Origin: Symbiodinium natans
Taxonomy: Eukaryota; Sar; Dinophyceae; Suessiales; Symbiodiniaceae
Assembly: GCA_905221605.1 (NCBI GenBank)
Contig: CAJNDS010001469.1
Location: 229,501 to 293,500, forward strand
Direction: 5' to 3'
DNA: 64,000 nt
How positions within the stretch are numbered: the stretch's first letter is position 1; each line of letters begins with the position of its first letter. This document shows, piece by piece, positions 37,171-56,028 of the stretch. The position numbers and the translations under genes are program-made. The notes beneath the pieces are model-generated. The model was not told where the DNA came from, did no database searches, and saw nothing but the letters and a program-made list of their open reading frames with translations.

Positions 37171-37225
37171 AGGGTTAGGGTTTGGGTTTTGGGTTTTGGG
37201 TTTAGGGTTTAGGGTTTAGGGTTTT
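37171..37225 (+). repeat. Degenerate telomeric tract
   Basis: TTTGGG, TTTTGGG and TTTAGGG units of 6-7 bp. Confidence 0.75.
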
Positions 37226-38383: not shown

Positions 38384-38466
38384 ATAATCATAATCAAAAT
38401 AATTGTAGAATTAATAATAGTAATAATAATAATAGCAATAATAATAATAATAATAATAATCATAAT
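38384..38466. repeat. (AAT)n microsatellite
   Basis: AATAAT/AATAGT repeats over about 80 bp; the opposite strand reads as an Ile run. Confidence 0.9.
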
Positions 38467-40884
38467 TACATGGCCCCTCAGTGTGGTCCCTTGCCTTCTC
38501 GAAAGGTTTTCTCGGGTGTATCAGGGGTATAGAAGGGTTGCCCCACTTCCGGGCCCATGTTACCATGTAACCACCCTACGACAACAAGTATATAGCCACG
38601 GCGACTTGCCAGCTCGGTACCCCAAACCCTAAACCCGAAACCCTAAACCCTAAACCCTCCAGAGGGTGTCTAGGGCTCGGCTGGCCCTTCTTATTCCCGT
38701 TTTTTCGAGTTCAAGGTTTAGGGCTAAGGGTTAGTAGGAGCCAGAGTAGGCCCTGATTCCGCTGTTTTTTCGGGCGTAGGCTCCCTGAGATGAGACGCCC
38801 TCTTTAAACCAACAGGGGCACCTTGTGTGTTCCTAGGTGAACTCTTGGGTCTAGGTTTAGGGCTGGGGGTTGAAGGGTTTCGGTTCACCCATCAGCCAAC
38901 TATGCCAGTAGATAGAGCGCATATTGACAATTCAAAATGTGAGCTTCTCGGCATTTCTCATACACGTGATGTTAGATACCCTCCACTAGATCTTATATGA
39001 AGGTTCCAGTAGTGTAGTTCCTTCTGGAGTTAGTTTTTTCTGAGATTCTAGAAGACTACCACCTAAACCCTGCACCCTAACCCTAAACTCTCAAAAGCCA
39101 CTACATACGAGCCTTTGGGGAATCCAGCCGCTGCAGACAGGAACGCGGCAATCCATGCCTGGAAGGGGTACCGTGACCGAGCGTGGGGCAAAGATGAGCT
39201 GAAGCCCGTCTCAGGCCTGCTACCCAGGATTTATAGGATTTAGAGTCGAGAGTTGAGATTTTAGGGTTTAGGGTTTCGGGTTTAGGGTTTAGGGCAAACC
39301 CTCAGCCCTCAACCCTCAACCCTACCCAGAATGACCTTTCTACCCTATGTTTGTTAGAGATTGCCCTGTCAAGGGAGAAATACCTGAATCGTTGGGTAAA
39401 AGTCATATTGGCCCTTTTGTAAGGTATACAGGTTACTTTATTAGGTAGGGTTAGGGTGTCGGGTTTCAGGTGTAGGGTTTGGGTTTTAGGGCCCAGTCCT
39501 TGGTGGATTTCATGTTCGCGTCTTTACACCCAGCCTGCGCTCGCGTGCAGCAACGCCTGGGTTCAGGGTTTAGGATTTTGGGCCTGGGTCCTGTCCCAGA
39601 TTAGGTGTGCTTAGGGACCAACTGGCTGACTTTGAACCTTCTGGGGTACATACAACCCTACCATAATTGAAAGGTTAGCCTTGTTTGGGCCAGGGTACTT
39701 GGCAACTAGGGGGACCCCATACCCTCAACCCTCGACCTCCTACGGGCTCTGCACCCTAAATCCTAAAACCTAAACCCTGCAAACCGCTTTAGCCTATAAA
39801 CCCCAAAACTATACACACCCCTTAAACCCTATGAACCTGAGACCTAGGTTCATGGGCACTTGTAAGTGCGTAGGGTACTCATAATCCTAGTTCAAAGTAC
39901 CCATGAACCTGCAAGAAAGGCCTTCTCTACCCTAAAGCCGCTCGATTGAAACAGGCCAGACCACTGAAAGCCGCGTGCGGGTTCACGGTTTAGGGTTGAG
40001 GGTGTAGGGTTTAGGGTTTAGGGCTAGGGCTTTAGGGTTTCGGGATAGGGGTTTAGGGTTTAGAGTTGCAAGTTCAGAGGTAAATCGCATGGTTGGCACA
40101 ACTTCTGACTATGAAGCCTCCCCCTGGCATGTCCGAGCGGATTGAGCCCCCAAACCATGTAATTGAGGAGTCGGAATGATTACTATTAGTTTTCCCCTAT
40201 GGCCCCTATAGAAGTAGGCAAGTATGCCATGGTGACCCCGAAACCCTATTCTACTTGCAAACCCCAAAAGCGCCCTACTTCTTACTCCCATATGAAGGCA
40301 TAAACCCCTTGAATCATAGTAAGGATCCCGAGTACATGGTCAGTGCGCAAAATCTCCTTTTTTGGGTAACCGAAATATTCGGGGCCGCCTGGCCACCTTA
40401 TCACAGTAACCCCAAAAACGGCCAAAATTTGGAGCAGTGACCATAAATGTTTCCGGTTTATTCCTTCCCTAAACCCTAAGCTGTTTCCAAAAGAGCCCTT
40501 CATGCCCCGAACTGAAGGTCCATACCTCCAGAGGGTTTAGGGTGTAGAGTTTAGGGCTTAGGGTTTAGGGTATACATCTCAGGTGGAAGGACCCAGAGGA
40601 GGCCCTTATCCCTGGGGGGGCGTGAGGTTCCCTCATAAGCCCCTGTGAACCGAAAAGGTTACCCTAATTCTTCCCAGGTTACTCTTGGGTCACCTTAGAC
40701 CCTAAACCAAAAACCCCCTAAACCCAAAGCCCTAAACCCTAAACCCCTTTTATTCATCGGGAAATTCCTTATTAATAGGGTTTAGGGTTTAGGGTTTAGG
40801 GTTGTTAAAGCCCCGAAGATATGCAAGGTGCGGCTGGGCGGATATGGGGCAACACGGGGCTCCAGAGATTTGGCGCAATTCGCG
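38467..40884. other. No gene seen; foldback and telomeric debris
   Basis: Includes a telomeric stub (38640-38660), the GGTTCCC/CCAGGTTACTCT family at 38763-38850 and 40622-40697, and an FB-E copy with telomeric units in its loop (38992-39117). A small palindrome lies at 39848-39913, with stubs at 39259-39295, 39985-40070, 40540-40570 and 40781-40803. Frames at 40255-40503 have no motif. Confidence 0.45.
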
Positions 40885-41075
40885 GTTTAGGGTTCAGGGC
40901 TTAGGGTTAGGGTTTAGGGTTTAGGGTTTAGGGTTTAGGGTTTAGGGTTTAGGGTTTAGGGTTTAGGGTTTAGGGTTTAGGGTTTAGGGTTTAGGGTTTA
41001 GGGTTCAGGTTCAGGGTTTAGGGTTTAGGGTTTAGGGTTTAGGGTTTAGGGTAGTTTAGGGTTTAGGGTTGAGGG
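40885..41075 (+). repeat. Longest interstitial telomeric tract, abutting the copia element
   Basis: About 26 TTTAGGG units with a few TTCAGGG/GTAGTTTAGG irregularities; ends at GAGGG immediately before the putative TG of the retrotransposon. Confidence 0.9.
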
Positions 41076-41231
41076 TGTTGAAATTGAGCATTGTAAGCAA
41101 GGGTCTTGATTCAAGATGCGCGGACATGTACGAGGAGCATCGCCACCGATGGTGGCTCAAGGGCGAGCAGTGAGAAAATGTAGGGAGCCCGTGCGTGCGA
41201 GAGAGGGTCTTTCGGGACTGTCTGCTCTTCA
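41076..41231 (+). repeat. Possible 5' LTR of the copia element
   Basis: Bounded by TGTTGAA at 41076 and CTTCA at 41231, so it has TG...CA ends, and it sits directly between the telomeric tract and a possible primer site. At 156 bp it would be short, and there is no second copy to prove it. Confidence 0.3.
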
Positions 41232-41233
41232 GT

Positions 41234-41249
41234 TGGTAGCGTTGAGCCG
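41234..41249 (+). promoter_or_regulatory. Possible primer-binding site
   Basis: TGGTAGCGTTGAGCCG, 2 bp after the possible LTR end. It starts with TGG, as sites complementary to a tRNA 3'-CCA do, and resembles the TGGTATCAGAGC of many copia elements only in its first bases. Confidence 0.3.
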
Positions 41250-41251
41250 GG

Positions 41252-44200
41252 TTGACGATGGCCACCCTGGACTCATTAGATGAAGGCGAAGAAGCAAGGC
41301 AGCGACATGAAGAACCTTCTCTTCACGACATCCCCCCTCATGACTCAGTCGCCCCACTTGCAGATGAACCATCGTGGCACGACACCGACTGGAATGGCTC
41401 GAGCCGACCGTGGAGTGCTCGGAGCTGGAACAGCGGCTGGTGGTACGGCGGCTGGGGCAACTGGTATGGCACTTCGTCTTCCTGGGCGAGGAACGCTGAG
41501 GGCCCCTCAGATGGAGAAGCGACTGCGACTGCGGGTCAGACCGCGAGTCCCGAGCTCTCAGCAGCAGGAGGGCCTGCTGGCCAAGGAGCTCAGCAGCAAG
41601 CATCTTCGTCTGGCTCGTCTCGAGATCCCTGGGCGGCGGCGGCAGCGGCGATTATGGCGGCGGCAGCGGCGGCCCGGGAAGCGGCACCAGGAGATCCTTC
41701 TCGTGTCCATCAAGGCCACGATTCTCGCGGTCCTCTCGAAGTTTCGCATGGACCTCGCGACGAAGCAGCGGGCGTAGTCCAAGGATCCCAGGCCGATCCG
41801 TGGAGTTCTTGGAGGTCAGCGCAAGGATGGAGGACTTCTGGGGACTGGGAGCCTTGGTCATGGAACCGAGGACACGGAGCTGGGCCAAAGCCAGACCTTT
41901 CTGATCCCCCCGCGTGGCCTGGTTGGCCATACCGGCGTTTCTGGGTGCAGGCTGTGAAGCGTTGGGACAAGGCCACTGATGTGGCGATTCATCGTCGAGC
42001 TGAGAAGATACTACGGTCCTTGGGATGGGAGATGGCCGCGGACTTCGAACATCTTCTAGAAAGTGAATTGGTCGCGGCCGACTACTTGGACAAGATTTTA
42101 AAGATCATCGAGGCGAAAGCAGGAGTCCGAGAAGATGACGACCGACGTCGAGCCTACCGCGCCATCTTCGTCGACTCCCACCGGAAGAAGGACGAAACGT
42201 TGAGCCAGTATGTGTTGCGTCGCCAGCGAGATTTTCACAATGGTCAGGCGTATGGGCTGGTCTTTCCCGACAACCTGAAGGCGACTTTGCTGAAGGAGGG
42301 TGCTGGTCTTTCCGAGCAAAATCTTCAGAACTTGGCGGCCCTTCTTGGTGGAGAAGACGGAGATCCTGACCGAGTGGGCCGAGCACTGGCGAAGCTGGAC
42401 GTCCGGTCAGACCGGCTGACCGCCTATGAAGTGGCCGGCGAGAACTCTGGGGAGACCTCCAACTACGCGTCTCTGCGAGGTGATGCGGACGAGGGCGAAT
42501 CCTCGGAGATGGATGAGGAAGAGGTCCTCGCCGACTTGGAGGCCCTCGACCTTTCTGAAGACCAAGTGTGCGAGGTGTACGCTGTCCTGTCCGGAGCGGA
42601 TCGAAGAAAGCGGACTTGGAAGGAGAACAAACTCTTCAAGGCTGAGCTCCGGAAAGATAGGACATCCTTCACGAAGGGGGCACCGCCTTCTGGAGATCAT
42701 CCTCGTGGTCGGCAAGACGGTGGAAGTGGAGGTCATCCTCGTGGTCGGCAAGATGGCGGAAGTGGAGGTCGCGATCGACGCATGAGCAGAGAACAGCTGA
42801 AAAAGATCTCCCGATGCCGGATATGCAACAAGAAGGGCCACTGGGCGGCTGAGTGCCCAGAGAAGGGAGCATCTAAGGCTCCTGTCAGCGCTTTCAGTTT
42901 TGCTGCACAGCCTCCGTCTGATGCTGTGGCTTTTTCCTTCATCTCTAGGACCGAGTGGACGAGGTTGCTGTGGAGCATCGGGCCGTCTGAGAATGCGAAT
43001 GGCACTGCTTCATGGAATTTCCTGGCCACGCCTGAAGGACATGCGATCCTCGACATCGGTGCAACGCAGGACTTGATCGGGATGAGCGCGTTTCGGTCTC
43101 TCAAGGAGTGCCTGGCGAACGCAGGTCTGAAGCCCATCAAGGTGGATGCTCCCTATGCGATCCCAGCTGGGATCGGAGGAAAGGCGACTGTGGACCATGT
43201 TGCGTTGGTGCCGATAAGCCCTGGAGGACGACCTGGTGTTCTTCAGATGCTGGTGCTCAAGGAGGACATTCCTCCCCTCCTGAGCGTTGGCTTCTTGGAC
43301 TTCCTCGATGCCCAAATCTTCCTGAGCCAGGACCGAGTGCGCCTCGGTCGTTTTGGAGTCGACCTTCCCCTCAAAAGGCTTCCCTCGGGACACCGGACCA
43401 TGTCGCTCATCGGCTGGTCGAGTGGCATTTTCCCGATTCCGGACGACATCAAGTCCAAATTCGGTTTGGGCGACGGAGCCTTCCAACTCAATGTGCTCCC
43501 CTCCGCGTATATGAAAGAGTCCTTTGTCGAGCCCAGCTGCACATTGAGTGATGTCGAAACTTGTGTGCTCACCACATGTGATGTTGAAGAGTCCCTCGCA
43601 AGCTCGGATGTAGGAAGCACTGGGGCCCTTTCTGGAGCGCATGAGGTCTGTGGGTGCAGTACACGACACGATTGGGATGAAGGTAGCAAAGCATGCCCTG
43701 CGACCATGAAGCCCAAAGTCTCACAGGAGAGCTGCGTGGTTGAGTTTGTGGAGCAAACCATGAGGTCCCCGTCGTGTGCTTCGCGTGTCGGCTCTGATGA
43801 GACGCCTGAGCAGAGGCCCAGCCCTGCTGAACCAAATTCGATTGGCCTCCTTGTCGGGCATGGACTCGGGGGCGCTGCTGCAGACCTCGACGCGGCGATG
43901 GCGGGCGCTCGTCACTCGTGTGATGTTGGCCATGGAGTCCACTCGACTGATGTTCTTCAAGATGGCGATGACCGAGCGCTCAAAGAAGGACCCAAAGGGG
44001 AGAATGAAGTACGTCCTGGCGCCTGGAAGTGCTCCCGGAGGGTGTCTTCATCCGACCAACAAGGTGATCAGCCGTGGGAACCAGTGGGCGTCATGGCAGG
44101 TATGCACGCAATGCGACACCAGGATCGCCTATGGCCCGAGGTCCCGTCCGAAAGGGAAGGCAAAAGCCAAAGCTCGTGGTCAGGCGGCAGCAGAAGAGGT

Positions 44201-45427
44201 GGAGGCGACAGGCGTCGGGTATCCTTCAGCCTGGAGCACATCGACGACGTCCTCCCCATCTCCGGCGAATCCGACGTCTCCTCCAAGGACATCCAGGACT
44301 TCAACCTCAATGGCGTCATCAGACATCCACGAGATGAACTCCATGATGATGCAGTTCGTAAGCGGGATGCAGCGCCAGAGCGAAGCAATGACTGCATCAA
44401 TGGGCCAAATTGGAATGTCTCTGCAGGAGCTGGCTCGGGGACAGACCCAACTCTTGACGCTGATGCAGGGCCAAGGGAATCGGGCAGCAGTCGAGGAGCC
44501 TTGGAGCCGAGAGCAGATGCGCCGTCAGGCCCACGCATTGGCGGCGCAGGCGATGGAGGTCGAGGAATCGGACGACGAGTGGGGACAAGTAAATCCCAAC
44601 CTGGAAGATCAGCCTCCGCGGGCATGATGTGGCCTCTGTGGGTTACCTCTTCGATGATGTCCTTGACGTCAGCTTTGGCTTATCACCAGTGTTCTCCCGA
44701 GGCAAGGAAGCTGATCGAAGGACTGGGAGGAAACGAGCAGACATGGATCGTCGGCGACCACCTCATGATGGGGAACCCGGACAAGGATCGCTCTTCTATG
44801 GCCTTGCCCGCACTACTGGAAGGTTTTCGGCACGAGTTGGTGGAAGCCTCAGACCTGAGAGATGAGACGAGTGCGTGGATCCCAGTTTGGCATTCTCAGC
44901 AGGCAGCGGATGGCTCCCTTATGCGCCAGGGTCCCGGAGCACCAAGAGAAGAGTCCGAAGAGTCCTGCAGAACGTGGTATGTCCCGAAGAAACTATGGCA
45001 GCTGTGCAGTTTCCTGGAAGGCGACGTCGAGATCAGAAGGTTTCCGGCCTTTGACGAGGATTTCCCCTCTGCGCGAGCCTGGACAGTCACTCCTAAGCAT
45101 CGTGACCGATATCCCTCATGGATCTCCGAGGAGCTTTTCTCAAGTCCATCGTGCTCTACTCCTTCAGAAGTTGCTGAGATGTGTCAGAAGGTTTTCGTCT
45201 CTTACCATGGAAACTCGGATCCTGTGGGCCGGGACTCGGTGTCTTACATGGAGGTCTTCGTTCGGACGTCAGTGCCACAAGCTCTACAACGTCAAGGGTG
45301 GAAAATTCCCGAGCAGGAGGATCTTTCACCGCCCAGGATGGATGGCACTTCACGAAGGCGGAGCATCGTCAACGATGTAGAGATTTTCTACGAGATCACA
45401 GACCGGAGGTGCTCTTCTGTGAGGTGA
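41252..45427 (+). CDS. Copia Gag-protease reading frame
   Basis: 1391 codons. The first codon here is TTG/GTG-like in context; an ATG at 41259 (ACG-ATG-GCC-ACC) is the likely start. Residues about 229-400 form a helical, charged Gag core (begins FWVQAVKRWDK). A CCHC zinc knuckle lies at C522, C525, H530, C535, preceded by a duplicated DHPRGRQDGGSGG segment. The protease active-site region is at residues 599-610 (LDIGATQDLIG), with Asp601; the usual Ser/Thr after the Asp is Ile. The rest (about 760-1391) is less certain. Between 43.8 and 44.6 kb another frame looks more protein-like (separate entry), and after 45.18 kb the downstream frame takes over. The product would package element RNA and process the polyprotein. 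The Ile in the active site and the frame conflicts suggest a decayed copy. Confidence 0.8.
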   Translation: MTMATLDSLDEGEEARQRHEEPSLHDIPPHDSVAPLADEPSWHDTDWNGSSRPWSARSWNSGWWYGGWGNWYGTSSSWARNAEGPSDGEATATAGQTASPELSAAGGPAGQGAQQQASSSGSSRDPWAAAAAAIMAAAAAAREAAPGDPSRVHQGHDSRGPLEVSHGPRDEAAGVVQGSQADPWSSWRSAQGWRTSGDWEPWSWNRGHGAGPKPDLSDPPAWPGWPYRRFWVQAVKRWDKATDVAIHRRAEKILRSLGWEMAADFEHLLESELVAADYLDKILKIIEAKAGVREDDDRRRAYRAIFVDSHRKKDETLSQYVLRRQRDFHNGQAYGLVFPDNLKATLLKEGAGLSEQNLQNLAALLGGEDGDPDRVGRALAKLDVRSDRLTAYEVAGENSGETSNYASLRGDADEGESSEMDEEEVLADLEALDLSEDQVCEVYAVLSGADRRKRTWKENKLFKAELRKDRTSFTKGAPPSGDHPRGRQDGGSGGHPRGRQDGGSGGRDRRMSREQLKKISRCRICNKKGHWAAECPEKGASKAPVSAFSFAAQPPSDAVAFSFISRTEWTRLLWSIGPSENANGTASWNFLATPEGHAILDIGATQDLIGMSAFRSLKECLANAGLKPIKVDAPYAIPAGIGGKATVDHVALVPISPGGRPGVLQMLVLKEDIPPLLSVGFLDFLDAQIFLSQDRVRLGRFGVDLPLKRLPSGHRTMSLIGWSSGIFPIPDDIKSKFGLGDGAFQLNVLPSAYMKESFVEPSCTLSDVETCVLTTCDVEESLASSDVGSTGALSGAHEVCGCSTRHDWDEGSKACPATMKPKVSQESCVVEFVEQTMRSPSCASRVGSDETPEQRPSPAEPNSIGLLVGHGLGGAAADLDAAMAGARHSCDVGHGVHSTDVLQDGDDRALKEGPKGENEVRPGAWKCSRRVSSSDQQGDQPWEPVGVMAGMHAMRHQDRLWPEVPSEREGKSQSSWSGGSRRGGGDRRRVSFSLEHIDDVLPISGESDVSSKDIQDFNLNGVIRHPRDELHDDAVRKRDAAPERSNDCINGPNWNVSAGAGSGTDPTLDADAGPRESGSSRGALEPRADAPSGPRIGGAGDGGRGIGRRVGTSKSQPGRSASAGMMWPLWVTSSMMSLTSALAYHQCSPEARKLIEGLGGNEQTWIVGDHLMMGNPDKDRSSMALPALLEGFRHELVEASDLRDETSAWIPVWHSQQAADGSLMRQGPGAPREESEESCRTWYVPKKLWQLCSFLEGDVEIRRFPAFDEDFPSARAWTVTPKHRDRYPSWISEELFSSPSCSTPSEVAEMCQKVFVSYHGNSDPVGRDSVSYMEVFVRTSVPQALQRQGWKIPEQEDLSPPRMDGTSRRRSIVNDVEIFYEITDRRCSSVR
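43776..44627 (+). CDS. Copia spacer segment in an alternative frame (zinc-type motif and coiled coil)
   Basis: 283 codons in a frame different from Gag-protease. It contains WQVCTQCDTRIAYGP with a C-x2-C pair, a lysine/alanine-rich stretch (KGKAKAKARGQ), then a long helix with Met/Gln heptads (EMNSMMMQFVSGMQ) and a charged end (AMEVEESDDEW). Dinoflagellate copia polyproteins, as I remember them, carry a comparable zinc-type segment between protease and integrase. I therefore think this frame is the original one here, and that small insertions or deletions on either side moved it out of register. The overlapping frame of the Gag entry is also open, so I cannot exclude that one instead. Confidence 0.5.
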   Translation: MLRVSALMRRLSRGPALLNQIRLASLSGMDSGALLQTSTRRWRALVTRVMLAMESTRLMFFKMAMTERSKKDPKGRMKYVLAPGSAPGGCLHPTNKVISRGNQWASWQVCTQCDTRIAYGPRSRPKGKAKAKARGQAAAEEVEATGVGYPSAWSTSTTSSPSPANPTSPPRTSRTSTSMASSDIHEMNSMMMQFVSGMQRQSEAMTASMGQIGMSLQELARGQTQLLTLMQGQGNRAAVEEPWSREQMRRQAHALAAQAMEVEESDDEWGQVNPNLEDQPPRA

Positions 45428-48400
45428 GCCCGATTCTCTCAGCGAGCGAAGGGACCTCCCGTCTCCACTCTAGACTCAAGGAGCTCTTTGTCATGGAACT
45501 TGTTCGGGATCAGGAACAGCATGGGCGCATGTTCGGCCTCGAAGTTGATGAGAGCATGTGGTCGGATCCGATTGGCCCATGGAAGTCGTGGCACGAGCGC
45601 AGGGATCTATGGGTGGAGACGAGCCATGGAAGGGATGGCGGTCGAGTTTACATCACCAACTTCGCAACTCTGTCCTTGAGAGAGAAGTCGGCAAGGCAAA
45701 ATGGGCAGAGCGCTGAGGGCTACATGCAAAGGTTGGAGTCTGAGCTCTCTGACATGGAGAGGTGGAGCTGTGGGAGTCGACTGGCAGCCGAGGAAAAGCT
45801 CGCTAAGTTTGTGCTCGACCAGAAGGACTTCTCAGTGATGACCTGCGAGAGAGTGATTCGAGCCACCCAACTTTCTGAGAGACATGCCCCCCGGGCAGGC
45901 ATCGAGCAGGGCAACCACTACTCTCCGATGTACGTGTTCGGCCTCTTCTGCCATGGCGGTGTTTGGGGAGTCACAAACCGAACTCGGCGACGTCCATACC
46001 TGTGTCGCTATCTCAATGCCTTCCTCGATCATCATGGTGGTGACCCGCAGAGGACGAGCCTTGTTATCAACGCCGGGGCGACGATGAAAGCTCACCGTGA
46101 CGTGGCGAACCTCCAAGGGACTCGAAACAGTCTCATCACCTTTGGCGACCACGTTGGAGGTCGTCTTTGGGCGGCTGATGAAGCTCTGGTTGCTGGAGGT
46201 CAAGTTGGAAGATCCTGCACATGGGAGATCAGACCCGGAGAAACAAAGACGGGGGTGATGGTCAATCCTTTTCATCAGATGGTCACTTTTGATGCCAAGA
46301 AGTGGCATTCGGTGGAGCCCTGGAAAGGAACCCGAATAAGTCTCGCCGGCTATACTCTCCAGGCCCTCGAGCGGATTGACAAGGTTACCAGACGTCAGCT
46401 TCGGAGCTTGGGGTTCAAGCCCACTTTGTCTCGAGGGCGTCAGGCACCTCTTGTTCCTCGTGGCGGAGAATGGTGGAGCGACAACGTGAGCTACGCCCTC
46501 CGACGGGAGGGGGATCTTCGAGACTTTCCTGTGCTGGATCGCGAAGCTGGAGAACTACCAGAGGATGACGAGGAGATGGAAACGCCGGGCGAGGCTGCCG
46601 AACTCAAGGAGGAAAGCCAATCCTTGCGACTGACCGACAGTCAGAGACGCCTGATCCACAAGATCCACGTGAATGTCGGCCACCCTCCAGCAGAGCGTTT
46701 CTTGCGAATGCTCCAGGCAGCTGGAGCGCTCCCCCAGGTGATGAAGTACGTCAAAGAGGAATATCAGTGCGATCAGTGCTCCATCAAGCGAAGAGCAGAC
46801 CATCGTTTTCGTGCCCGGTGTCCTCGATCGTTTGAGTTCAACCGGGCTCTCGCTGTGGATACGATGTACGTCAACTTCGGCGGATACAAGGTCCCGGTGC
46901 TGAACATGACTGACACTGGCACTGGATATCAGGTCACTCAGCGGCTTCCGATTGCGACCGGAAGCCAGGGAGGTACCCCGACATCTGAGTCCACGTGGAG
47001 GGCTTTCCTGCATACGTGGATCAAGTATCTGGGAGCTCCTGAAGTTCTCATCTGTGATGGGGGTGCTGAATTCAAGGCGGCCTTCGAACGCGGCTGCGAA
47101 TCCCACGGGATCTTGCAGACAGTAACTCCCGCTGAGAGCCCATGGAAAAATGGGATCGCTGAGAGACATGGAGGCTTCATCAAAGACAAACTGGAGCAGG
47201 AGCTGGCGAGTGGAAAGTGCGTGATCCAAACCTGGGAGGATATCGACGACTACCTGACCGAGCTCACGAGCGTAAAGAACAGATGGCTGTATCGTGGAGG
47301 ATTCACGCCGGTTCAGCTGGTTTTCGGGCAGATGCCAAGAGTGGCTGGGGAGCTTCTCACAGATGATACTACGGCCTTGATGGGGCTGCAGGATGTTCTG
47401 GAGGACCCCAGTGGAGTGGATCAAGCTACCGGCGAGTTCCGCCGAAGGATGCAGATCCGCGAGAGCGCCAGGCAGCGAGCAATGGAGCAGGCATCTCGCG
47501 ATGCCGTCCAACGATCCCTCAGAACTACCACTCACCAAGGCAGAGACTGGAAGGCGGGCCAGTGGGTCTATGTCTTTCGCCGGGGCCAGGCCAACAATCC
47601 GCTCCATCCACGTAGTAGATGGGTGGGCCCGGGGCTGATAGTGCTGGCCAACAACTCCACCATCTATGTGGGCATGAGGACTCGACTCTGGCGCTGCTCC
47701 CCTGAGCAATTGCGAGCAGCTCATCCAATGGAGGAGCTTGGTCACCATTTGGCCCAGGATTCCTCTGCTGCAGAGGTCCTACGGCGAGTTCTCTCTGGAG
47801 CTCCGGCAGGAGCAGTGGATGTGCGACGAGAAGGACCTCCTCCTGAGGGAGCTCCCATGCTTCCAGTGGAAAGACACGGAGAAGGCCCGAGGATGTCAGG
47901 GTCCATGGAGGCGCCACAACACGCCCCTCTTCAAGTTCCACCAGTCCCTCCCGGACTTCTACTTCCTGCAGAACTACCCGATCCGACACTTCAGGAGCCC
48001 GGAGGTGCAGGAGCTCCATCACGAAGGTCCTCTACGGTGGCTGAGCCAGCGAGCGAACCAATATCTCGACAGGCCTCTCCTAGCGATGGTCTCGGAGAGA
48101 CAACCGGGTCAAGGATGACGCCCGGTCCAATGGAAAGCATTGCCGAGGAAAGGCCTGAAGAGGAGCTTGGAGGAGATTCTCGACCAATCACTCGACCAGA
48201 GCCGGAGGAGCATGCAGAGTCACCGCCGGCCAAGATGGCTCGAATGCGTGAGCCAGAGGAAGGAGCAAGCTCTAGCTCCACCCGAGCTCCGGGTACTCCG
48301 ATGCAGCCGTTGCTAAACATCATTCGGACATCCTCGATCCAAAGCGGTTCTGAAGTAGCTCCTTCCTTGACCCCAGGAGAAAGTCTTCCTCTGCATGGTC

Positions 48401-49632
48401 GAGTCGAACAACAGGTGCAGGAGTGGGAGCGCCTTCGACGAGATGATTCCCACTTTCCGGGTGAGACCGAGGAGGAACGGCAAAATGAGCATTCCTTCTG
48501 GACATCCGATGGAATGAGCTGGGAGAACTTCGCGAACGTGCATGCCAAGGAGGAGAAGGCAGCGAATCCCGTTGGAGATGGATCCTCCGTAGTGGCAAAG
48601 TTCGAGTCCGAGGACTGGTCCGGCACCTTCTTCAACTACCAGAACGGATCCGTTGACTTGATGCTGGATGAGGAGAATGAGTGGAACTTCGCTGCAAAGA
48701 GAGGCGACGAGGTGCAGCTTAGAGATCTGGCAGTCGAAGAGCGAAAGATGTTTGCTGGATCCGACTTGGCCGAGTGGGAGAGCATCCTGGGAACAAACGC
48801 CGTGAAGGTCCTTCGTGGTCGTGAAGCGCAAAAGGCCAGAGAACAGTATCCTTCCAGAATCCTGAGCAGCCGGATGGTGAGAAGAAAGAAACCGGTGGAA
48901 GGTTTGGGCCAGTGGAAGGCGAAGAGCCGGTGGTGTATACACGGCCATAAGGATCCGGATACGGGTTCCCTGTCAACGTACGCGCCAACTCCCAGTGGCG
49001 AAAGCTTAATGCTCTTTCTTCAATCTTCTCTCAATCTCTCCCACGTCTTTGCATTCGCCGACGTCAAGTCCGCTTTCTGCCAAAGCAACCCGATCAGGAG
49101 GCCAGCCGGCCCGATCTTCGCTCAACCGTGCGAGGGTTTGAACCTGCCCAAGGACGCGCTCATCCAGATCCTAGTTCCGGTTTACGGACTGGACGATGCG
49201 CCTGTCGCATGGCGGGAGACAGTGGTCAGCTACCTGATCCAGGAGGGATACGAGAGAAACGTGATCGAGCCGTGCTGGTTCTCGAAGTTCGACGAGGCTC
49301 GGGAGAATTGCTCCCAAGTGATGGTCGAGGTCGACGATTTCATCATCACGTCTTTGCCGGGCGACGCCGAGCGTCTCAAGAAGAAGTTCATGAGTCGGTG
49401 GAAGTTCGGCAAGTGGGTCGAAGGATCCGCAGACTACGCCGGGAGAATGGTGACGGTGAAGGCCGACAGACTGGAGATCTCCCAAGAGAAGTACATCCTG
49501 GAACAAGTGCATCCAATATTGTTGGCCCGAGACCGCAAGCGAGCCAAGGAGTCCCGCCTGAGCGAAGAGGAGTTCCACGCCTTCAGGTCCATCGTCTACA
49601 AGAAAACCCGTGTTGTTGCAACCGGATGTTAA
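45181..49632 (+). CDS. Copia Pol reading frame: dioxygenase-like domain, integrase, reverse transcriptase (truncated)
   Basis: 1483 codons, overlapping the Gag-protease frame by 247 bp in another phase. The first in-frame ATG is unlikely to be the real start. Residues about 55-100 hold a DGWHFTKAEHRQ segment that I associate with the spacer of dinoflagellate copia elements. Residues about 265-400 are a 2OG/Fe(II) dioxygenase-like fold (separate entry). Integrase: zinc-binding H496, H501, C530, C533; catalytic D560, D626, E661 (34 residues between the last two, the DD35E spacing), with SPWKNGIAERHG around the Glu. Then a Pro/Glu/Ser-rich linker (about 880-1100). Reverse transcriptase from about residue 1190: FAFADVKSAF (D1294) and VEVDDFI with D1385-D1386, where copia usually has YVDD. 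The frame diverges after FRSIVYK and stops at 49632, so RNase H is lost. Confidence 0.9.
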   Translation: MSEGFRLLPWKLGSCGPGLGVLHGGLRSDVSATSSTTSRVENSRAGGSFTAQDGWHFTKAEHRQRCRDFLRDHRPEVLFCEVSPILSASEGTSRLHSRLKELFVMELVRDQEQHGRMFGLEVDESMWSDPIGPWKSWHERRDLWVETSHGRDGGRVYITNFATLSLREKSARQNGQSAEGYMQRLESELSDMERWSCGSRLAAEEKLAKFVLDQKDFSVMTCERVIRATQLSERHAPRAGIEQGNHYSPMYVFGLFCHGGVWGVTNRTRRRPYLCRYLNAFLDHHGGDPQRTSLVINAGATMKAHRDVANLQGTRNSLITFGDHVGGRLWAADEALVAGGQVGRSCTWEIRPGETKTGVMVNPFHQMVTFDAKKWHSVEPWKGTRISLAGYTLQALERIDKVTRRQLRSLGFKPTLSRGRQAPLVPRGGEWWSDNVSYALRREGDLRDFPVLDREAGELPEDDEEMETPGEAAELKEESQSLRLTDSQRRLIHKIHVNVGHPPAERFLRMLQAAGALPQVMKYVKEEYQCDQCSIKRRADHRFRARCPRSFEFNRALAVDTMYVNFGGYKVPVLNMTDTGTGYQVTQRLPIATGSQGGTPTSESTWRAFLHTWIKYLGAPEVLICDGGAEFKAAFERGCESHGILQTVTPAESPWKNGIAERHGGFIKDKLEQELASGKCVIQTWEDIDDYLTELTSVKNRWLYRGGFTPVQLVFGQMPRVAGELLTDDTTALMGLQDVLEDPSGVDQATGEFRRRMQIRESARQRAMEQASRDAVQRSLRTTTHQGRDWKAGQWVYVFRRGQANNPLHPRSRWVGPGLIVLANNSTIYVGMRTRLWRCSPEQLRAAHPMEELGHHLAQDSSAAEVLRRVLSGAPAGAVDVRREGPPPEGAPMLPVERHGEGPRMSGSMEAPQHAPLQVPPVPPGLLLPAELPDPTLQEPGGAGAPSRRSSTVAEPASEPISRQASPSDGLGETTGSRMTPGPMESIAEERPEEELGGDSRPITRPEPEEHAESPPAKMARMREPEEGASSSSTRAPGTPMQPLLNIIRTSSIQSGSEVAPSLTPGESLPLHGRVEQQVQEWERLRRDDSHFPGETEEERQNEHSFWTSDGMSWENFANVHAKEEKAANPVGDGSSVVAKFESEDWSGTFFNYQNGSVDLMLDEENEWNFAAKRGDEVQLRDLAVEERKMFAGSDLAEWESILGTNAVKVLRGREAQKAREQYPSRILSSRMVRRKKPVEGLGQWKAKSRWCIHGHKDPDTGSLSTYAPTPSGESLMLFLQSSLNLSHVFAFADVKSAFCQSNPIRRPAGPIFAQPCEGLNLPKDALIQILVPVYGLDDAPVAWRETVVSYLIQEGYERNVIEPCWFSKFDEARENCSQVMVEVDDFIITSLPGDAERLKKKFMSRWKFGKWVEGSADYAGRMVTVKADRLEISQEKYILEQVHPILLARDRKRAKESRLSEEEFHAFRSIVYKKTRVVATGC
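45970..46380 (+). other. 2-oxoglutarate/Fe(II) dioxygenase-like domain inside the copia Pol (TET/JBP-like by motif)
   Basis: Within Pol residues about 265-400. Visible motif set: H305-R-D307 followed by N310 (AHRDVANLQG), then SLITFGDHVGGRLW, and after 68 residues a second His (FDAKKWHSV, H376) followed nine residues later by Arg385 (WKGTRISL). HxD...H...R is the iron- and 2-oxoglutarate-binding arrangement of the double-stranded beta-helix dioxygenases. HxDxxN, GG-L-W and FD...H are what I remember for the TET/JBP branch, which oxidises 5-methylcytosine or thymine in DNA. Other branches (AlkB, prolyl hydroxylase) are not excluded. All four residues are intact in this copy. The position, between spacer and integrase, makes it part of the element's polyprotein. 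Confidence 0.65.
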
Positions 49633-50139
49633 CCAAAATCAAATCAGATGTTTCAATAAGCGGGGTCAGAGAAAGCATTCAGAGGGACATCTTCAACATT
49701 GCACGCCTTTGATGACAGCGCATGTTCGCACAAGTTTCGGGACGAATTAGGCACAAAAGCCTTTGGGAGTCTGTACAACGCATATCCAAGTGAACTGCAA
49801 GGTGTTTGATGCTTGAGGATGCATGTTGTCGCTCTGTCTTGTGCTTCTATTGTGTGCTGCGCGTGGCTGTCTTGTGTTTGTTGTGCTGCTTGTCTGTGCT
49901 AGCAGGCCAGCTTCAGACCATCACATCGTCAATCTGTACCTGGCAGTTGCAAGGAACATGATGCAGCAAGAGAAGCAAACAATTTTGCAACAAGGCAGCA
50001 TGCACAGAACAGCACAGCACAGCACAGCACACAGTGAAGCACACAGTAAAAGCACATTTTTCTCACACCCCTCCCCAAGTTTCAACTTTTCAGCTGGAAG
50101 GCCAGCTGACTAGCAAGTGACACTCGATCTAAGTGTTAA
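49633..50139. other. No gene seen; probable downstream flank of the minus-strand gene
   Basis: Unique sequence with a (CACAG)n stretch at 50008-50036. It may include the 3' untranslated part of the minus-strand gene, but no signal was identified. Confidence 0.3.
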
Positions 50140-50292
50140 CTAGCGCTTGTCCTCAGGCAAAACATACTCAGCGGCACAGGGCACACCCTCGGCGATGAGC
50201 TTCTTCAGGCATTCTCGCCGCTTCTTTTGACCAGCAAGCTGCCGCTTCTTGCTGTCCTTCTCAACCACACTCTTGTGGCCCACTGAGTATGC
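50140..50292 (-). CDS. Terminal exon of an uncharacterised basic protein gene
   Basis: 51 codons including a TAG stop (complement of 50140-50142). It follows an AG acceptor at 50293-50294. The exon is Lys/Arg-rich (VEKDSKKRQLAGQKKRR) and ends CAAEYVLPEDKR. Reading phase matches the upstream exon (50344 and up) when a 51-bp GT-AG intron is removed. Without the splice the upstream frame runs into a TAG after five more codons. The join is my inference from phase and splice dinucleotides. No domain is recognised. Confidence 0.55.
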   Translation of the reverse strand, partial: AYSVGHKSVVEKDSKKRQLAGQKKRRECLKKLIAEGVPCAAEYVLPEDKR

Positions 50293-50343
50293 CTCAGATC
50301 AAAATTCAAAGCATCCTGCCAAGAAGACATGCTAAAGCTGTAC

Positions 50344-50922
50344 GTTGCAGTCAGATTGACTATTAGGCCAAGAGGCTGAGTTGAGCCTCTTCTTCAAAAG
50401 ATCCAGGTCGGACTCGTTCTTGGCCTTGTCTTTTGTAGCAGCCTTGTTGCCCTTCTTCTGCGTTGGCTTGGAGTTCTTCGTGCTCTCGATCTCCTGGCGC
50501 TTTTTGCGCTTGATCTCGTCCTTGATCTTGAGTTCGCCTTCAATCTCCTGATGCAGGTCGTCAAGGAATGCGTCCATGCGAGCCTCGTGGATGCTGTCCT
50601 CCTCGGCCCCACCAATTGGCTCAGACTCAACAGCTGCAGGCTTGGCACTGTCCTCTGCCTCGCCGATCTCCCCGAAAATGTGGAGCTCGGTCTCCAAGTC
50701 ACTGTGCGACTCGTAGAAATCAGCAACGACTTGGTTGCGATCTAGAATGTTCTGGAGCTCGTCCGTCCCCTCGAAGAGGTCGTCCACTTCGTCGAGCGGC
50801 AACTGGTCTGCGGCTTCAACATCCTTGGACTCGTCCGCCCCCAGAATAAGAGTTTCAGCTTGAGAATCGAAGCAGATCTCATCGGAGTTCTCGAAAGCCC
50901 GGAGCCGCTGCAACGTGTTCTC
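50344..50922 (-). CDS. Internal exon of an uncharacterised acidic/basic protein gene
   Basis: 193 codons, open throughout on the minus strand, with an AG acceptor at 50923-50924 (CGCCAG|GAG) and donor AAC|GTACAG at 50343. There is no ATG near the 5' end, so at least one upstream exon must lie beyond 50.95 kb; I could not find it. The N-terminal part is acidic (DEVDDLFEGTDELQN). A short helix follows (EARMDAFLDDLHQEIEGELK), then a strongly basic low-complexity stretch (KKRQEIESTKNSKPTQKKGNK) and a final ESDLDLLKKRLNSA. The charge layout suggests a coiled or disordered nuclear or ribosome-associated protein, but I recognise no family. It is transcribed opposite to the following gene. Confidence 0.6.
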
Positions 50923-52245
50923 CTGGCGAATCAAAGTCTTACACGGGAATCAGTGTGGAGTTCCGCAATTCAGGGGGGGGTCGGTGATTAAGCCTTGGAG
51001 CTGGCGCCATCGTTCCAAAGTGTGCTTTCGGGCCCCCAGCCTGGCGCAGCACCAAAGCGCCTGGAAGCCCATGTTTGTTTAACAAAACAAGTCTCAGCGA
51101 GGAGCAAATGCATGGGGTGTGTCCCGGGTGATGGGCAGTGATGGACGTTTTATTGCCACAGGTTGGTTCCGGCCACGCAAGCCTGCGCCTGCACAACTAG
51201 CATGTGACCGACAAAATGGTCGTTTTGCCTTGGGGCAGGACGTCAGTGACGGCAGAACCATGTTATCCAAATCAGTCTGGGGGCCTGAGGTGCAAACACC
51301 ACTAGACACAGAGACAATTCTGCGGCGTAGGCAGCACAGGCAGCATAGGTTTAGCACAACATGAGATTGAAGCCTGCAACAGCTGGCAAGTGGCCAACAC
51401 CGGTTAAACAGCGAACCGCATTCAAGCCACGTTTTTTTGCAGATTTCAGCGGCCTTGCGGCCTGGTAGCCAGGCCCCATGATGAGGTTGTGTAGCTTGCA
51501 ACTGTGTGGATGGGATGGGAGCGCTGGCAGCGCTGGAGAACTCGTGCGCGCTATGCATATTTTTTCAATGACCAGAGGACCAGAGTCCAGCGTGACCAGA
51601 TCCTGGCGATTTGGTTCGGGGGAGGGGGGGGGGGGGGGCGGGGCCGGGGCGAGCAAAAAATCGACTTTCGAGTGAGATACTACGGTACAGTGTCCACTCG
51701 GTACAGTCGGTTCAGTGCCGTACGGTCCGGTGTGGTAAGAATTTTGGGCCAAAGTCTGGAGTCTCTACTGTCTCTACTCTAGTCTACGGACCTACGGACC
51801 CTTGACTCATGACTCTTCATAGACACAGACCGCGGTGACCGCAGGCCGCAGACCCACGTGCCAAGCCCATTTCATTGAATCATTTGCCCCATTGCCATTG
51901 CCAATTGCCATTATTGCCTATTGACCGCTTTTTCACCTGAATCACGCTTGAATCCTGAACCCGACTTGAGCCTGACCTGGCCGAAACCTCACACACACAG
52001 GCCCCAACCCCAGGCCCCAAGCCCAAACCCAAGCCGAAACCCTGTTAGCGGTTGTCGCGCGCTCCGCCCAGGCAATGGCAGGGTTTGGGTTTGCATGTAT
52101 GCTTGTCGGGAATTGCAAGGCAGTCCAAGGCCAAGGCCAAGGTCCATGATCCATGGCCCTATCTTAGCCTGCAGGTTCTGTCTTGGTCTTAGAGTCTTAG
52201 GTCCTCAAGACTCAAGCCCTTTAGCTCAAAGGATGAAGACTCGTA
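50923..52245. other. Intergenic or intronic stretch between two divergent genes
   Basis: Contains low-complexity G-run frames (51615-51660), GTCTCTACT repeats (51760-51790) and Pro-rich frames (51921-52355) that I do not accept as coding. If the flanking genes are divergent, their promoters should lie here; no motif was recognised. Confidence 0.35.
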
Positions 52246-52300
52246 CCCCTAAGGTTGTACCCCTAAAGGTTCCCCTTAATATACTGCTAATCTGGCCCTT
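52246..52300. repeat. 52-bp dispersed element, copy 2
   Basis: Matches 35650-35702 nearly base for base (CCCCTAAAGGTTCCCCTTAA and beyond); the one clear change is ATAT for ATAG. Confidence 0.85.
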
Positions 52301-52397
52301 ATATTCGTTTAGGAATCCTGAAAAGGGGCCCCAAAACCCAAGGGTCCAAGGTTGAACCCCTAGATAAGCCTTTAGCCTTCAGCCTTTAGGCCTTTAG

Positions 52398-52590
52398 GCA
52401 TCAACGAAGCTTGCCATGGCACTGCCGACATCTCTTGCGGAGTCTGTGCAGAAGATTTGTTCATGGCTGAAGGTCGCCGGAAATGCCATACATCGAGTTG
52501 GCAATCATGTCACTGCAGAGGAGAAGGCAGCATTTGGCTTAGCGTTCCAGGCGGCAGAGGCTTTGTTGAGGCCCGTTGCCTGCCTGCAGT
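52398..52590 (+). CDS. First recognised exon of the long plus-strand gene (uncertain borders)
   Basis: An open frame following TTTAG|GCA at 52395-52397. The ATG at 52416 gives MALPTSLAESVQKICSWLK..., amphipathic and alanine-rich, running to about 52570-52590 where it hits TGA. Whether the ATG is the start or the exon is internal is undecided. The exon end may be a GT at 52575 or a GC at 52571. No family is recognised from this part alone. Confidence 0.4.
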
Positions 52591-53025
52591 GATCTAATAT
52601 GAATGATTTTGCGTTGTGTCAACTTGTGTTAGCCGCTTGGCCATTGGGGTCAATCGGCCATTGCTGTGCTCAGTCATGCTCAAACACCGAGCTTGTCCAA
52701 GGCACACGAGCAGCTGCAGCCATCTTTGCAGTGTGGTCCTGGTCGAAGGGCTTACACACTTCGTCAAATCTTTCATTTCATGCAAGTGAGACTTGCCTCG
52801 AACTCGTCAGGAACGGATTCTTACATTGGAAATGAAAGTGGTAGCGTTAGAGTCTGAGTTGCGTGAGAGGCCAGAAGTAGGAGAAGGCGGCTGGGCGGGG
52901 TGGGCCCGGGTAGTCGGGTAGGCGTAGGAGTGTCCGAGTCTGACGAAATTAGCGCCTAAGGGCCTACTGGCCTCACGGGGCATAAAGCGCAACAAGAACA
53001 TGTCTGTCATGTCATGTCATGTCAG

Positions 53026-53198
53026 CATGTCATGTCATGCCAAGTTTGCGTGAAAAGTCGAGGGCGATCCATCTTCGTGACGGTGGGAAGATGCAGAAGG
53101 TGATGGGCGCTGCGTTTCGACTGGCGTTTGGGGAGGGCTCCGAAGAACTGCAGTTAGAAAAGGATTGCAAGATTGGCAAGGCTGGGCCAGCCCGGGCC
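53026..53198 (+). CDS. Exon, long plus-strand gene
   Basis: Open frame after an AG at 53024-53025. Protein-like stretch REKSRAIHLRDGGKMQKVMG and AAFRLAFGEGSEELQ. The donor GCC|GTACCT at 53199 joins in phase 0 to the exon at 53258. Confidence 0.45.
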
Positions 53199-53257
53199 GT
53201 ACCTTGTGATCGGGCAAGTTTCAGTTTCAGTGTGACATTGTGACATGTGCCCTGCAG

Positions 53258-53525
53258 GCCACCATCAGCAGATCAAAGCTGAAGCTAGATGTCGCCAACA
53301 TGATCCTTCGGCGTGGCTTCTGGGAAGATCAGTTTAAAGACCTCTCCAAGCTTGTTGGTCGCACTGAGGACCAGGCTGGTGAAGCTATTGCTGCCCAAGA
53401 GGCCCAGGAGAGATTCAATAAGATCACGTGCGCCGGGGAGCTGCCGTTCGTGCAATTAGGATATGACGCGTCGCCGGTCAAAAAAGAGCTGTTCCTCGTA
53501 CAAGAGACATCGCTACAGTCGCTTG
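53258..53525 (+). CDS. Exon, long plus-strand gene
   Basis: CTGCAG|GCC acceptor; about 89 codons reading SKLKLDVANMILRRGFW, then QFKDLSKLVGRTEDQAGEAI and ELPFVQLGYDASPVKKE. Balanced composition and no stop until 53602. The exact donor is unclear (candidates near 53525-53530). Confidence 0.55.
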
Positions 53526-53835
53526 GTGGAGTCTTTTCAGCCTGCCTGGGCCTGCCTGGGGCCTGGGGCATGAGACCGTGGGACTGGCCTTATAGGTACT
53601 AAGGACCTGAGCCTGAGCCGAAGCCAAAGCCGAAGCCCCTCAAGTCCTCAACGGTCCTCAACCCTGAGCCCTCAGCCTCAGACTCAGACCTAAGCCTAAG
53701 CCTTTACTGCTTAAGTAGCTGGCCTCTATTGAGTCTAGTCTAAACAGTTCAGATTTTGCCTAAGTTTGAAACGCCCGCCTCCTGCCGCTTAAACCATCAT
53801 GATGCCATCATGTCATCGTGGCCAGGTTTTCTCAG

Positions 53836-54165
53836 GCTCGCAAGCAACTTGAATTGGTGCAGAAATCCGGGGATATCTTTCGAGGAGTTCTTTTGGACGA
53901 GAGCGATTTGGCAGCTCAAGCAAGGGCCGATGCGGACGTGACGGCGGACATTGTGCAGTCGACGTCCGTGAGACTTCTTCCAGTTACTGGCCTGGGTTTG
54001 GCCCACACCGACTTGAGCCACAAATTCAGCTGTTTGCTGCACACAGTCGGTCTGGAAACAGGCCACAGCAGGAGACTTTATCTGAAGTCGGTGGTAGCGT
54101 GTCTGTCCGACCAGGGCATCTCAGCACGCACAGTAACGAGCAGATTGTTTTTTCGGGATGACCGG
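53836..54165 (+). CDS. Exon, long plus-strand gene
   Basis: CTCAG|GCT acceptor; reads ARKQLELVQKSGDIFRGVLL, VTGLGLAHTDLSHKFSCLLH and LYLKSVVACLSDQG. The SDQG at the end resembles the S/T-D-x-G element that precedes the His/Asn segment in related dinoflagellate proteins. Exon end uncertain. Confidence 0.5.
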
Positions 54166-54304
54166 CGGGACCGGCGCTGAATATCACATGTAGTATGTAG
54201 CCTCAGATTTCGTGACCTTTTTGTTTGTTTACGACGACGTTTCAGTTCCAAGCCAAGCTCCATAACCTGAGTTCTGATGTAAGGCACTGAGCTTGGGATT
54301 GCAG

Positions 54305-54428
54305 GCAGCCCTGCGGTGGAGCTCGATACCTTGTTACAAGAGGAGGCTCGCGCCATGGGCAGTGTAGCTGCAGAAGCAGAGGGTTCTTCCGGTGGCGCTG
54401 ATGGTGTTGCTGCGCCTGTCACACCTTT
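54305..54428 (+). CDS. Exon, long plus-strand gene (or terminal exon of a shorter gene)
   Basis: TTGCAG acceptor; reads SPAVELDTLLQEEARAMGSV, then a Gly/Ala/Ser-rich tail and VAAPVTPL before TAG at 54430. It could end a first gene here, or splice on to 54714 through a GT/GC within the tail. Confidence 0.4.
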
Positions 54429-54713
54429 GTAGCTCGACATTCAAGGGCAGGCGCATGTGTGGGAGGGTGGGAGCCCCAGCCCAGTTCCTGTAGTGCCTTT
54501 ACATGGGCAAGGGATGGCGCAGAAGGCTGCGTAGGCTGTAGCAAGATGTGAGATCTGATGCTGCACTGACACTCATTACTCATTACTGATGTTCAATGTT
54601 CAGTCTCAGTTGAAGTTGAGTTGTGTATGAATGACTCCGCTGCCCTCGCCCCCACCGCCCCCGCCCCGCCCCCCTCCGCCTCCCGCCCCCTCCCACTGCC
54701 TCCCACTGCTTAG

Positions 54714-54834
54714 GATGCCAAATTCTCTGAAGATCATTGGCGTGAAGCATGTGTGCGACAATCTGCTCCATGCGTTCCTTGAGCGGACCTCTTTGCCCCC
54801 TGGCTGCAGAACTGGCGACACTGACAGTCGGACA
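54714..54834 (+). CDS. Exon, long plus-strand gene
   Basis: A C-rich pyrimidine tract then TGCTTAG|G-ATG. Reads MPNSLKIIGVKHVCDNLLHA, the 'HxxDN' segment of the family. A GT at 54835 gives phase 0 to the next exon. The ATG at 54715 could alternatively be a translation start. Confidence 0.5.
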
Positions 54835-54943
54835 GTCCTTGACAGTTCCGGGCCGGGTCTCTTGGAGTCATGTAGTGAATCGGAAGCCAGGAAGCTTTCT
54901 TATGCCCGTGTTGAACCGGTGTTGAATGTTATGTTGGTTGTTG

Positions 54944-54948
<5 letters not shown>

Positions 54949-55014
<66 letters not shown>
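54949..55014 (+). repeat. (CTG)22 trinucleotide repeat in an intron
   Basis: Exactly 66 bp of pure CTG, about 60 bp upstream of the next exon; the complementary strand reads as polyalanine. Confidence 0.95.
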
Positions 55015-55072
55015 ATGGACTGATGGATTTAATCAGGCATAATGCATGGGCCTGGCGATTTGGTCTGCCTAG

Positions 55073-55180
55073 CCAAGTTGGAGCGGCTTCTACGAGGACC
55101 TGACTGAATTGGAGCGCCTGATGAATAAGGTGGTCAGCCGGGAAGCCTTCAGGGCCGGGTGCCTTCCTCCTGACCGCAAG
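55073..55180 (+). CDS. Exon a of the phase-verified part
   Basis: CCTAG|CCA acceptor, 36 codons, KPSWSGFYEDL-type start (W-S-G-F), then TELERLMNKVVSREAFRAGC. The donor is AAG|GCCGGA, a GC donor; reading on gives TAA after two codons. Phase 0 at both ends. Confidence 0.6.
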
Positions 55181-55464
55181 GCCGGATAAGCAGGAGCGTT
55201 GACAGCGTTGAGTCAGCGTTGATCGCGGGACAGTGGGCAGTGGGGGCTGTGTGGGCCGGTCCTTGTGGGTAGTGTCAGTGGCACATCTGACATATGACTC
55301 ATATGACTTCCGGATTCCCCACAAGCCTACAAGGCAAGCTTGGTGTTGCCAACGCTGACTGTAGACATGTAGTGTGGGGCCTAAGTCCTACTCTAGATTT
55401 GTTTAAAGTCCAGACAGAAAGTCAAGCCAAGCCAGTCCAGACTTACATATTTTCGTCCGCCCAG

Positions 55465-55566
55465 GATCTTCACGCATTGTTCCTCAACTGGAACATCTCA
55501 CTGAAATCGCTCCGATGGGAGCGGCTTGTCGACTTTTGCGAGGCAGAGTCTTGTCTGCATCTGCTT
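55465..55566 (+). CDS. Exon b
   Basis: CCCAG|GAT acceptor and CTT|GTCGCT donor, 34 codons: DLHALFLNWNISLKSLRWER. Joins phase 0 on both sides; reading through the donor meets TGA two codons later. Confidence 0.65.
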
Positions 55567-55706
55567 GTCGCTTGAAGCACTTAAAGTTCAGTAGCTCAGC
55601 ATGGCAGTGCGGCAGTCAATCATGTGATGTGAATGCGAATGAGTGACCTGGCCTGACAGAGTTTCCAGTCCCAGTCCCAGTCCCAGTCCCATGCTTTCCA
55701 GCCAAG

Positions 55707-55871
55707 ATGCGCCCTTTGGAAGCCGATCTGCGTCGCTATTGGAATATGAACACCTATGCCAATGCGTCTGCGTCTGCCGCTTCCTCTGGCCAGAGCGGTC
55801 GAAACAAAGCTAGCGGCAGCGGCGGCGGTGGTGACAGCAACCCGTTGCCCAGGCTCGACAAGTTGGACAAG
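55707..55871 (+). CDS. Exon c
   Basis: CCAAG|ATG acceptor, 55 codons: MRPLEADLRRYWNMNTYANA, a Ser/Gly-rich linker (GRNKASGSGGGGDSN), then PLPRLDKLDK. The donor AAG|GCAAGC is a textbook GC-AG donor. Phase 0. Confidence 0.65.
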
Positions 55872-56028
55872 GCAAGCGTGCGAATGTCACAGCGCAGGAC
55901 ACAGGAGGGTTGCACACGGGACAGGTAAAGCAAGGCGTAAGGCCTAGGGACGGATAATCCCCAGCTAATCCAAGCACCAATTGAACCCTTTGTCCCGGAT
56001 GACCCACTCTGTCACTGTCCCTACCCAG

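Follow-up and report, generated by a model that had tools for sequence, protein, structure and literature searches.

In fungi, mobile elements of the Kyakuja type carry a TET/JBP gene that the author of a 2025 study takes to serve the element. In the parts of that study available to us, the carriers of TET/JBP genes, Kyakuja and others, are DNA transposons, and no retrotransposon with TET/JBP was found among the fungal elements (PMC12730594). Orchid Gypsy elements combine an LTR retrotransposon with a 2OG oxygenase, an AlkB-type 2-ODD that is encoded in an additional ORF and acts as an RNA m6A demethylase; the excerpts of that work that we could consult report no domain gain in Copia across 121 plant genome assemblies (PMC9289625). 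In dinoflagellates, retrotransposons that encode an enzyme for DNA base modification are known from Symbiodinium, where a methyltransferase (DNMT) is carried by LINE and DIRS elements, inside Pol in the latter, and where Copia is stated, in the accessible text, to be without any DNMT domain (PMC5890265). The DNA of dinoflagellates is itself unusual, with 5-hydroxymethyluracil in place of 12–70% of thymine; the accessible parts of the same source suggest TET-family enzymes as the likely makers of this base in general and identify no dinoflagellate one (PMC6723414). In Breviolum, 5-hydroxymethyluracil is enriched over repeats, according to the available sections of another study (PMC11071213).

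We analysed a 64,000-nucleotide stretch of Symbiodinium natans DNA (the window), for which an initial annotation, made from the sequence alone, had proposed a copia retrotransposon with a TET/JBP-like DNA dioxygenase domain. Our results indicate that many LTR retrotransposons of this genome carry a predicted TET/JBP-related domain in the Pol polyprotein. These elements share with Kyakuja the pairing of a mobile element with a TET/JBP-type enzyme, but are not DNA transposons; they share with the orchid elements an LTR retrotransposon and a 2OG oxygenase, but are copia-type, not Gypsy, and hold the domain within Pol; and they share with the Symbiodinium DNMT elements the dinoflagellate host and a putative base-modifying enzyme, which is here a dioxygenase and not a methyltransferase. 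The accessible portions of two reviews (PMC11453091 and PMC11065753) contain nothing on a retrotransposon with TET/JBP, and our survey of titles and abstracts, which covered neither subscription papers nor preprints, returned no report of the combination among the papers listed; it may be in print elsewhere.

The window element and its host

The host is a dinoflagellate, as the initial annotation had supposed: the 21-mer of the dinoflagellate spliced leader occurs in 205 exact copies in the 759-Mb source genome, compared with 0 for the reversed control. The element (Table 1) has a Ty1/copia-type arrangement, with RVT_2 and, upstream of this reverse transcriptase (RT), integrase motifs in one frame, which bears out the earlier assignment to copia. 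By motif reading, the integrase comprises an HHCC part from 46657 and acidic motifs at 46846–46869, 47050–47073 and 47140–47175; PDB hits of this region were weak and fell on TnsB and on integrases of retroviruses (best E 0.027–0.03), and Integrase_H2C2 matched the window Pol at E 0.041, below the cut-off. The gag frame holds a CCHC zinc knuckle at 42815–42856 (zf-CCHC, E 0.00021) and, by motif reading, a DIGATQD protease-like motif at 43049–43081. Codon scores switch from the gag to the Pol frame near 45250.

Table 1 Features of the element within the window (positions of the 64,000-nucleotide stretch)
Feature	Positions	Strand	Basis
Gag and protease frame	41246..45427	+	CCHC zinc knuckle, protease-like motif
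Pol frame (spacer, dioxygenase domain, integrase, reverse transcriptase)	45178..49632	+	Stop-free open frame
Predicted TET/JBP-like 2OG/Fe(II) dioxygenase domain, about Pol residues 245–415	45913..46425	+	Family alignments, genomic matches
HRDVAN, with H305 and D307 as presumed ligands of Fe(II) and with N310 at the TET base-recognition position	46093..46110	+	Family conservation, CcTet register, PMC11040006
HVGGRLW, conserved strand	46150..46170	+	G before R-L-W and W kept in 70/70 loci
FDAKKWHSVEPWKGTR, with H376 presumed to be the third Fe(II) ligand and R385 to bind 2-oxoglutarate	46288..46335	+	Family conservation
Integrase, HHCC zinc-binding part and DDE-type core	46657..47175	+	Motif reading, weak PDB and Pfam matches
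Copia-type reverse transcriptase (RVT_2)	48871..49506	+	Pfam E 1.9e-10; DD within 49324–49353

The window copy is decayed. In two stretches within 43850–44600, codon scores prefer another frame although the gag frame has no stop there, which points to changes of frame. No RNase H was recognizable by reading or Pfam in the window Pol, which ends shortly after the RT. The copy looks truncated at this point, and no direct repeats of at least 40 nt that could represent LTRs were seen in 36000–56000 besides TTTAGGG-type ones. Many interstitial repeats of the TTTAGGG type lie just before the element, at 36529–41088. The spacer at 45334–45620 resembles, by eye, the matching stretch of an RT relative (L175) and possibly represents a methyltransferase-like segment that has degenerated; it gave no Pfam match and no significant BLAST match.

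The residues singled out by the initial annotation (H305, D307, H376 and R385) are exactly as described and share an open frame with integrase and RT; their codons begin at 46093, 46099, 46306 and 46333, and those of N310 and W330 at 46108 and 46168. The domain itself lies where it had been placed (45970–46380) and extends more widely on both sides. Scanned singly, the window copy had no relevant Pfam match, and NCBIfam, PHROGs and PDB gave only noise; because it matches no profile, its assignment as TET/JBP-like rests on its relatives.

Searches outside the source genome returned no such relatives. Phage records gave only noise for the window domain and for two representatives of its family, and viral contigs contained no relative of the domain by protein search or by a first motif pattern; four viral-contig loci retrieved with a relaxed pattern were judged to be chance. 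Integrase and RT patterns picked out 3 and 15 viral-contig loci, respectively, none with a tblastn match to Pol at E ≤ 0.05, and a gag-region stretch matched these loci only twice (E 0.02). From a collection of genome contigs, neither the 10 stretches found by protein nor the 70 found by pattern (best phmmer E 0.47) included a relative.

A conserved domain family across the source genome

A query with window positions 45781–46530 yielded 1,555 candidates in the source genome, of which the best 150 were scored: all had E ≤ 4.1e-30 and all 150 lay in stop-free frames, with 32–38% identity to the query once the window copy itself was excluded. The 150 matches listed for a second query, L123, likewise all lay in stop-free frames (E ≤ 6.2e-21), and 57 of their places were absent from the first list when the two were compared by reading, so that at least 207 places hold the domain; these are the best-scoring copies only, a choice that favours intact ones. 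Across 23 representatives, the 22 others being 23–37% identical to the window copy, 13 alignment columns were invariant, including H61, D63, N66, G83, W86, H132 and R141 of the aligned domain. In a domain tree the window copy grouped with L159 and L110 (support below 80) and 13 L123-like representatives grouped together (support 87).

The arrangement expected of TET/JBP enzymes, an HxD...H Fe(II) triad with a downstream Arg, recurred throughout. Among 70 loci, which were picked by similarity, and thus with bias, and correspond to 67 distinct places because three were fetched twice, the H, D, N, G, W and H were kept in 70/70 and the R in 69/70. In the exception, L097, a His replaces the presumed co-substrate Arg and all Fe ligands are kept. 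Absence of the domain from other copies of the element, or loss of the H/D/H/R residues across copies, had been named in advance as grounds for abandoning the proposal; neither was seen.

Selection was assessed in 69 copies, 55 of them distinct (L109 failed the motif filter and was left out). In all 22 printed pairs with dS of 0.1–0.8, dN/dS was 0.04–0.11, pairs within a family not being independent of one another. Young pairs with few changes gave ratios of up to 0.9 (L156/L160 and L106/L107, four changes each), those of L127 with L129–L132 being 0.50–0.63; L140 compared with L142 and L143 gave 0.25–0.27 at dS 1.4–1.5, and where a member of the L094 family was paired with one of the L112 family, saturation precluded any ratio. 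This comparison, which the initial annotation had suggested, shows that the domain is under purifying selection.

In most of the loci that we examined, the domain forms part of Pol. The integrase lay downstream of it in 19 of 27 loci and upstream in three (L110, L117 and L126), in which the domain sits between integrase and RT; it was not found nearby in the other five (L106, L107, L127, L129 and L159), and we claim a retrotransposon setting for the 22 loci with an integrase. In the L094 element the order is protease motif, domain, integrase motifs and RT (RVT_2 E 1.1e-6, in L164), and in that of L123 it is domain, integrase and RT (RVT_2 E 3.7e-6, in L163), whereas L110 has integrase, domain and RT (rve E 0.001, RVT_2 E 1e-10); the domain thus occupies at least two places in Pol and its position is not fixed.

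The association also held when elements were chosen by their RT. The window RT alone had 139 scored matches in the source genome, a few of them with stops. Its nearest relative, C2117 (59% identity), was not among the domain matches listed, and was examined blind with a profile built without it: the 1,301 bases at the predicted site contained the domain in one open frame (E 2.2e-43), with intact motifs (HRDLHN, GGKIW and H...PWKGER), in this one element, the only one tried. A further RT relative, C1824 (55%), has a 2,996-aa frame and shares contig and strand with a domain match that also lies in a 2,996-aa frame.

Other segments of these elements were seen in passing. The gag-like part of L094 (343–411) contains CCCH zinc fingers (zf-CCCH, E 2.7e-10). 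By motif reading only, a stretch behind the dioxygenase domain in L129 (376–1149, minus strand) and another, C-terminal in the L094 element (L164, 3385–4008, plus strand), each read like a remnant of a C5-methyltransferase fold, on account of motifs of the ELFAG.., LPC.. and ENP.. kinds, which we presume to be of C5-methyltransferase type. Neither stretch had a Pfam match, nor L129 a PDB match, and the DNMT-like reading was set aside.

Relationship to TET/JBP and other 2OG oxygenases

Tet_JBP matched the family more often than did the other 2OG profiles. At E ≤ 1, Tet_JBP (PF12851) matched 15 of the 23 representatives, seven of them at E < 0.001 (4.8e-7, 2.4e-6, 3.9e-5, 5.3e-5, 1.6e-4, 6.6e-4 and 8.2e-4 in single-member scans), in a sample that is partly selected, as L123, L125, L126 and L127 had originally been found with this profile; a protein query had supplied L137, L152 and L157, and the places of L137 and L152 are also among the genome matches of Tet_JBP. 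No representative reached the curated cut-off of 34.9 bits, the best scoring 29.6 bits (E 4.8e-7), and because of this we call the domain TET/JBP-like and do not file it as a member. The profile comparison with TET_JBP, 2OG-FeII_Oxy and AlkB that the initial annotation had called for came out in favour of the first by number of matches, all of them below the cut-off; 2OG-FeII_Oxy matched one representative (E 0.0087).

Genome-wide, Tet_JBP had 27 matches at E ≤ 1 (17.5–26.7 bits, best E 0.00117), none with an internal stop and none above the cut-off, in a search that could miss an intron-rich host gene. They lay in frames of 110–3,429 aa, 23 of which exceeded 1,000 aa, and 18 of the 27 weak matches are members of the present family, 10 as fetched loci and 8 because their places coincide. 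The same search of 296 bacterial genomes from the phylum of Mycolicibacterium gave 33 matches, 12 of them with stops, with a best score of 17.6 bits, which 23 of the 27 source-genome matches exceed; at E ≤ 0.001 there was no match in these 296 and 20 other bacterial genomes, nor in the source genome.

The two best PDB sequences for the family profile were CcTet (E 0.71 and 0.75, not significant), followed by caspases (1.1); a profile of the L123-like clade again placed CcTet on top (E 0.92), and one of the window clade found no oxygenase. We used the CcTet alignment, which is non-significant alone (E 0.71), for residue register. It sets the family HxD on CcTet H326 and D328, which are metal ligands (PMC12730594, accessible text), and, in a second and weaker stretch (−2.1 bits), sets the family on a CcTet H followed nine residues on by an R. 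In this alignment the invariant family Asn is paired with Gly331 of CcTet; the corresponding residue of human TET2, Asn1387, bonds the 5mC base, according to the part of the source available (PMC11040006). The base-recognition residue lies five after the first His and is Asn in TET2, Asp in NgTet1 and CMD1, and Gly in CcTet (PMC12730594 and PMC11040006, in part); on this register, which comes from the non-significant alignment and these papers, the family has Asn in 70/70 loci. The family thus resembles CcTet, NgTet1, TET2, CMD1 and JBP in its HxD...H...R order and has Asn at the position of TET2 Asn1387, and differs from them in falling below the Pfam cut-off, in occupying some 180 aa within the Pol of copia-type elements, and in its own conserved signatures, G-x-L-W and W-x-G-x-R.

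An element-borne 2OG dioxygenase could act on RNA rather than DNA, for example in the repair or demethylation of packaged genomic RNA, since the genome of the element is RNA during the particle phase. The 2OG domain of the orchid Gypsy LTR retrotransposons, an m6A RNA demethylase in vitro, offers a precedent (PMC9289625, available sections). We consider an RNA substrate unlikely: the AlkB profile (PF13532) matched none of the 23 representatives, against the 15 matched by Tet_JBP, and its eight matches in the genome (six over the cut-off) lie elsewhere, in frames of 187–526 aa, none among the places listed for the domain in a by-eye comparison; moreover, on the CcTet register the invariant Asn falls at the pyrimidine-contact position of TET. 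These results disfavour an AlkB assignment.

A second alternative, that the domain is a protein hydroxylase of the prolyl-4-hydroxylase kind with Gag, integrase or a chromatin protein of the host as its substrate, seems to us quite improbable. Two of the 23 representatives match 2OG-FeII_Oxy_3 (PF13640; best E 7.4e-6). One of the two is L112 (E 7.3e-5; 24.1 of 27 bits, below the cut-off), which has no Tet_JBP match and is a 61% identical sister of the L094 family, the top-scoring family after the window copy. Most representatives match Tet_JBP instead, and of the 28 places that 2OG-FeII_Oxy_3 matches genome-wide, 26 are in frames under 500 aa and none was, by eye, among the domain matches listed by either query.

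Possible function of the domain and dinoflagellate DNA chemistry

The position of the domain, with integrase downstream in 19 of 27 loci, upstream in three and not found in five, would also suit a descendant that has lost catalysis or only binds, and that steers integration by reading modified bases. We regard this as very unlikely, because binding alone would hardly need the conservation of all Fe ligands and, in all but one locus, of the Arg, or the low dN/dS. That the residue pattern of the window frame arose by chance, a reading to which the lack of any profile match for the window copy alone might lend itself, is refuted by at least 149 further genomic matches (E ≤ 4.1e-30 among those scored), the same residues across the 70 loci and the blind domain match near the RT relative.

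We favour, as the probable explanation, a decayed dinoflagellate Ty1/copia-type element whose Pol carries, ahead of integrase, a TET/JBP-like 2OG/Fe(II) dioxygenase domain, of a family under purifying selection that serves the elements, presumably through packaging and base-methyl oxidation. That the domain serves the elements follows from its occurrence as a large family in many elements together with purifying selection. As part of a copia-type polyprotein, the enzyme would travel with RT and integrase; being made together with them, it would presumably be released or packaged in the particle in their company. There it would be expected to bind Fe(II) and 2-oxoglutarate and may oxidize the 5-methyl group of a pyrimidine, 5-methylcytosine or thymine, on new cDNA or on host DNA around the insertion site. 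If the substrate were 5-methylcytosine, silencing methylation would be undone; if it were thymine, the cDNA would be given the hydroxymethylated look of host DNA.

A bolder extension, which we hold to be speculative and on present evidence rather improbable, is that TET/JBP-like enzymes of retrotransposons supply some, and perhaps most, of dinoflagellate 5-hydroxymethyluracil, with selfish elements having first marked their own cDNA as self. A defined set of candidates with invariant catalytic residues makes the question of which enzyme produces 5-hydroxymethyluracil in dinoflagellates directly testable. Mobile elements may help to write the DNA chemistry of dinoflagellates and, if the extension were true, selfish elements would be the authors of the peculiar base chemistry found in these genomes.
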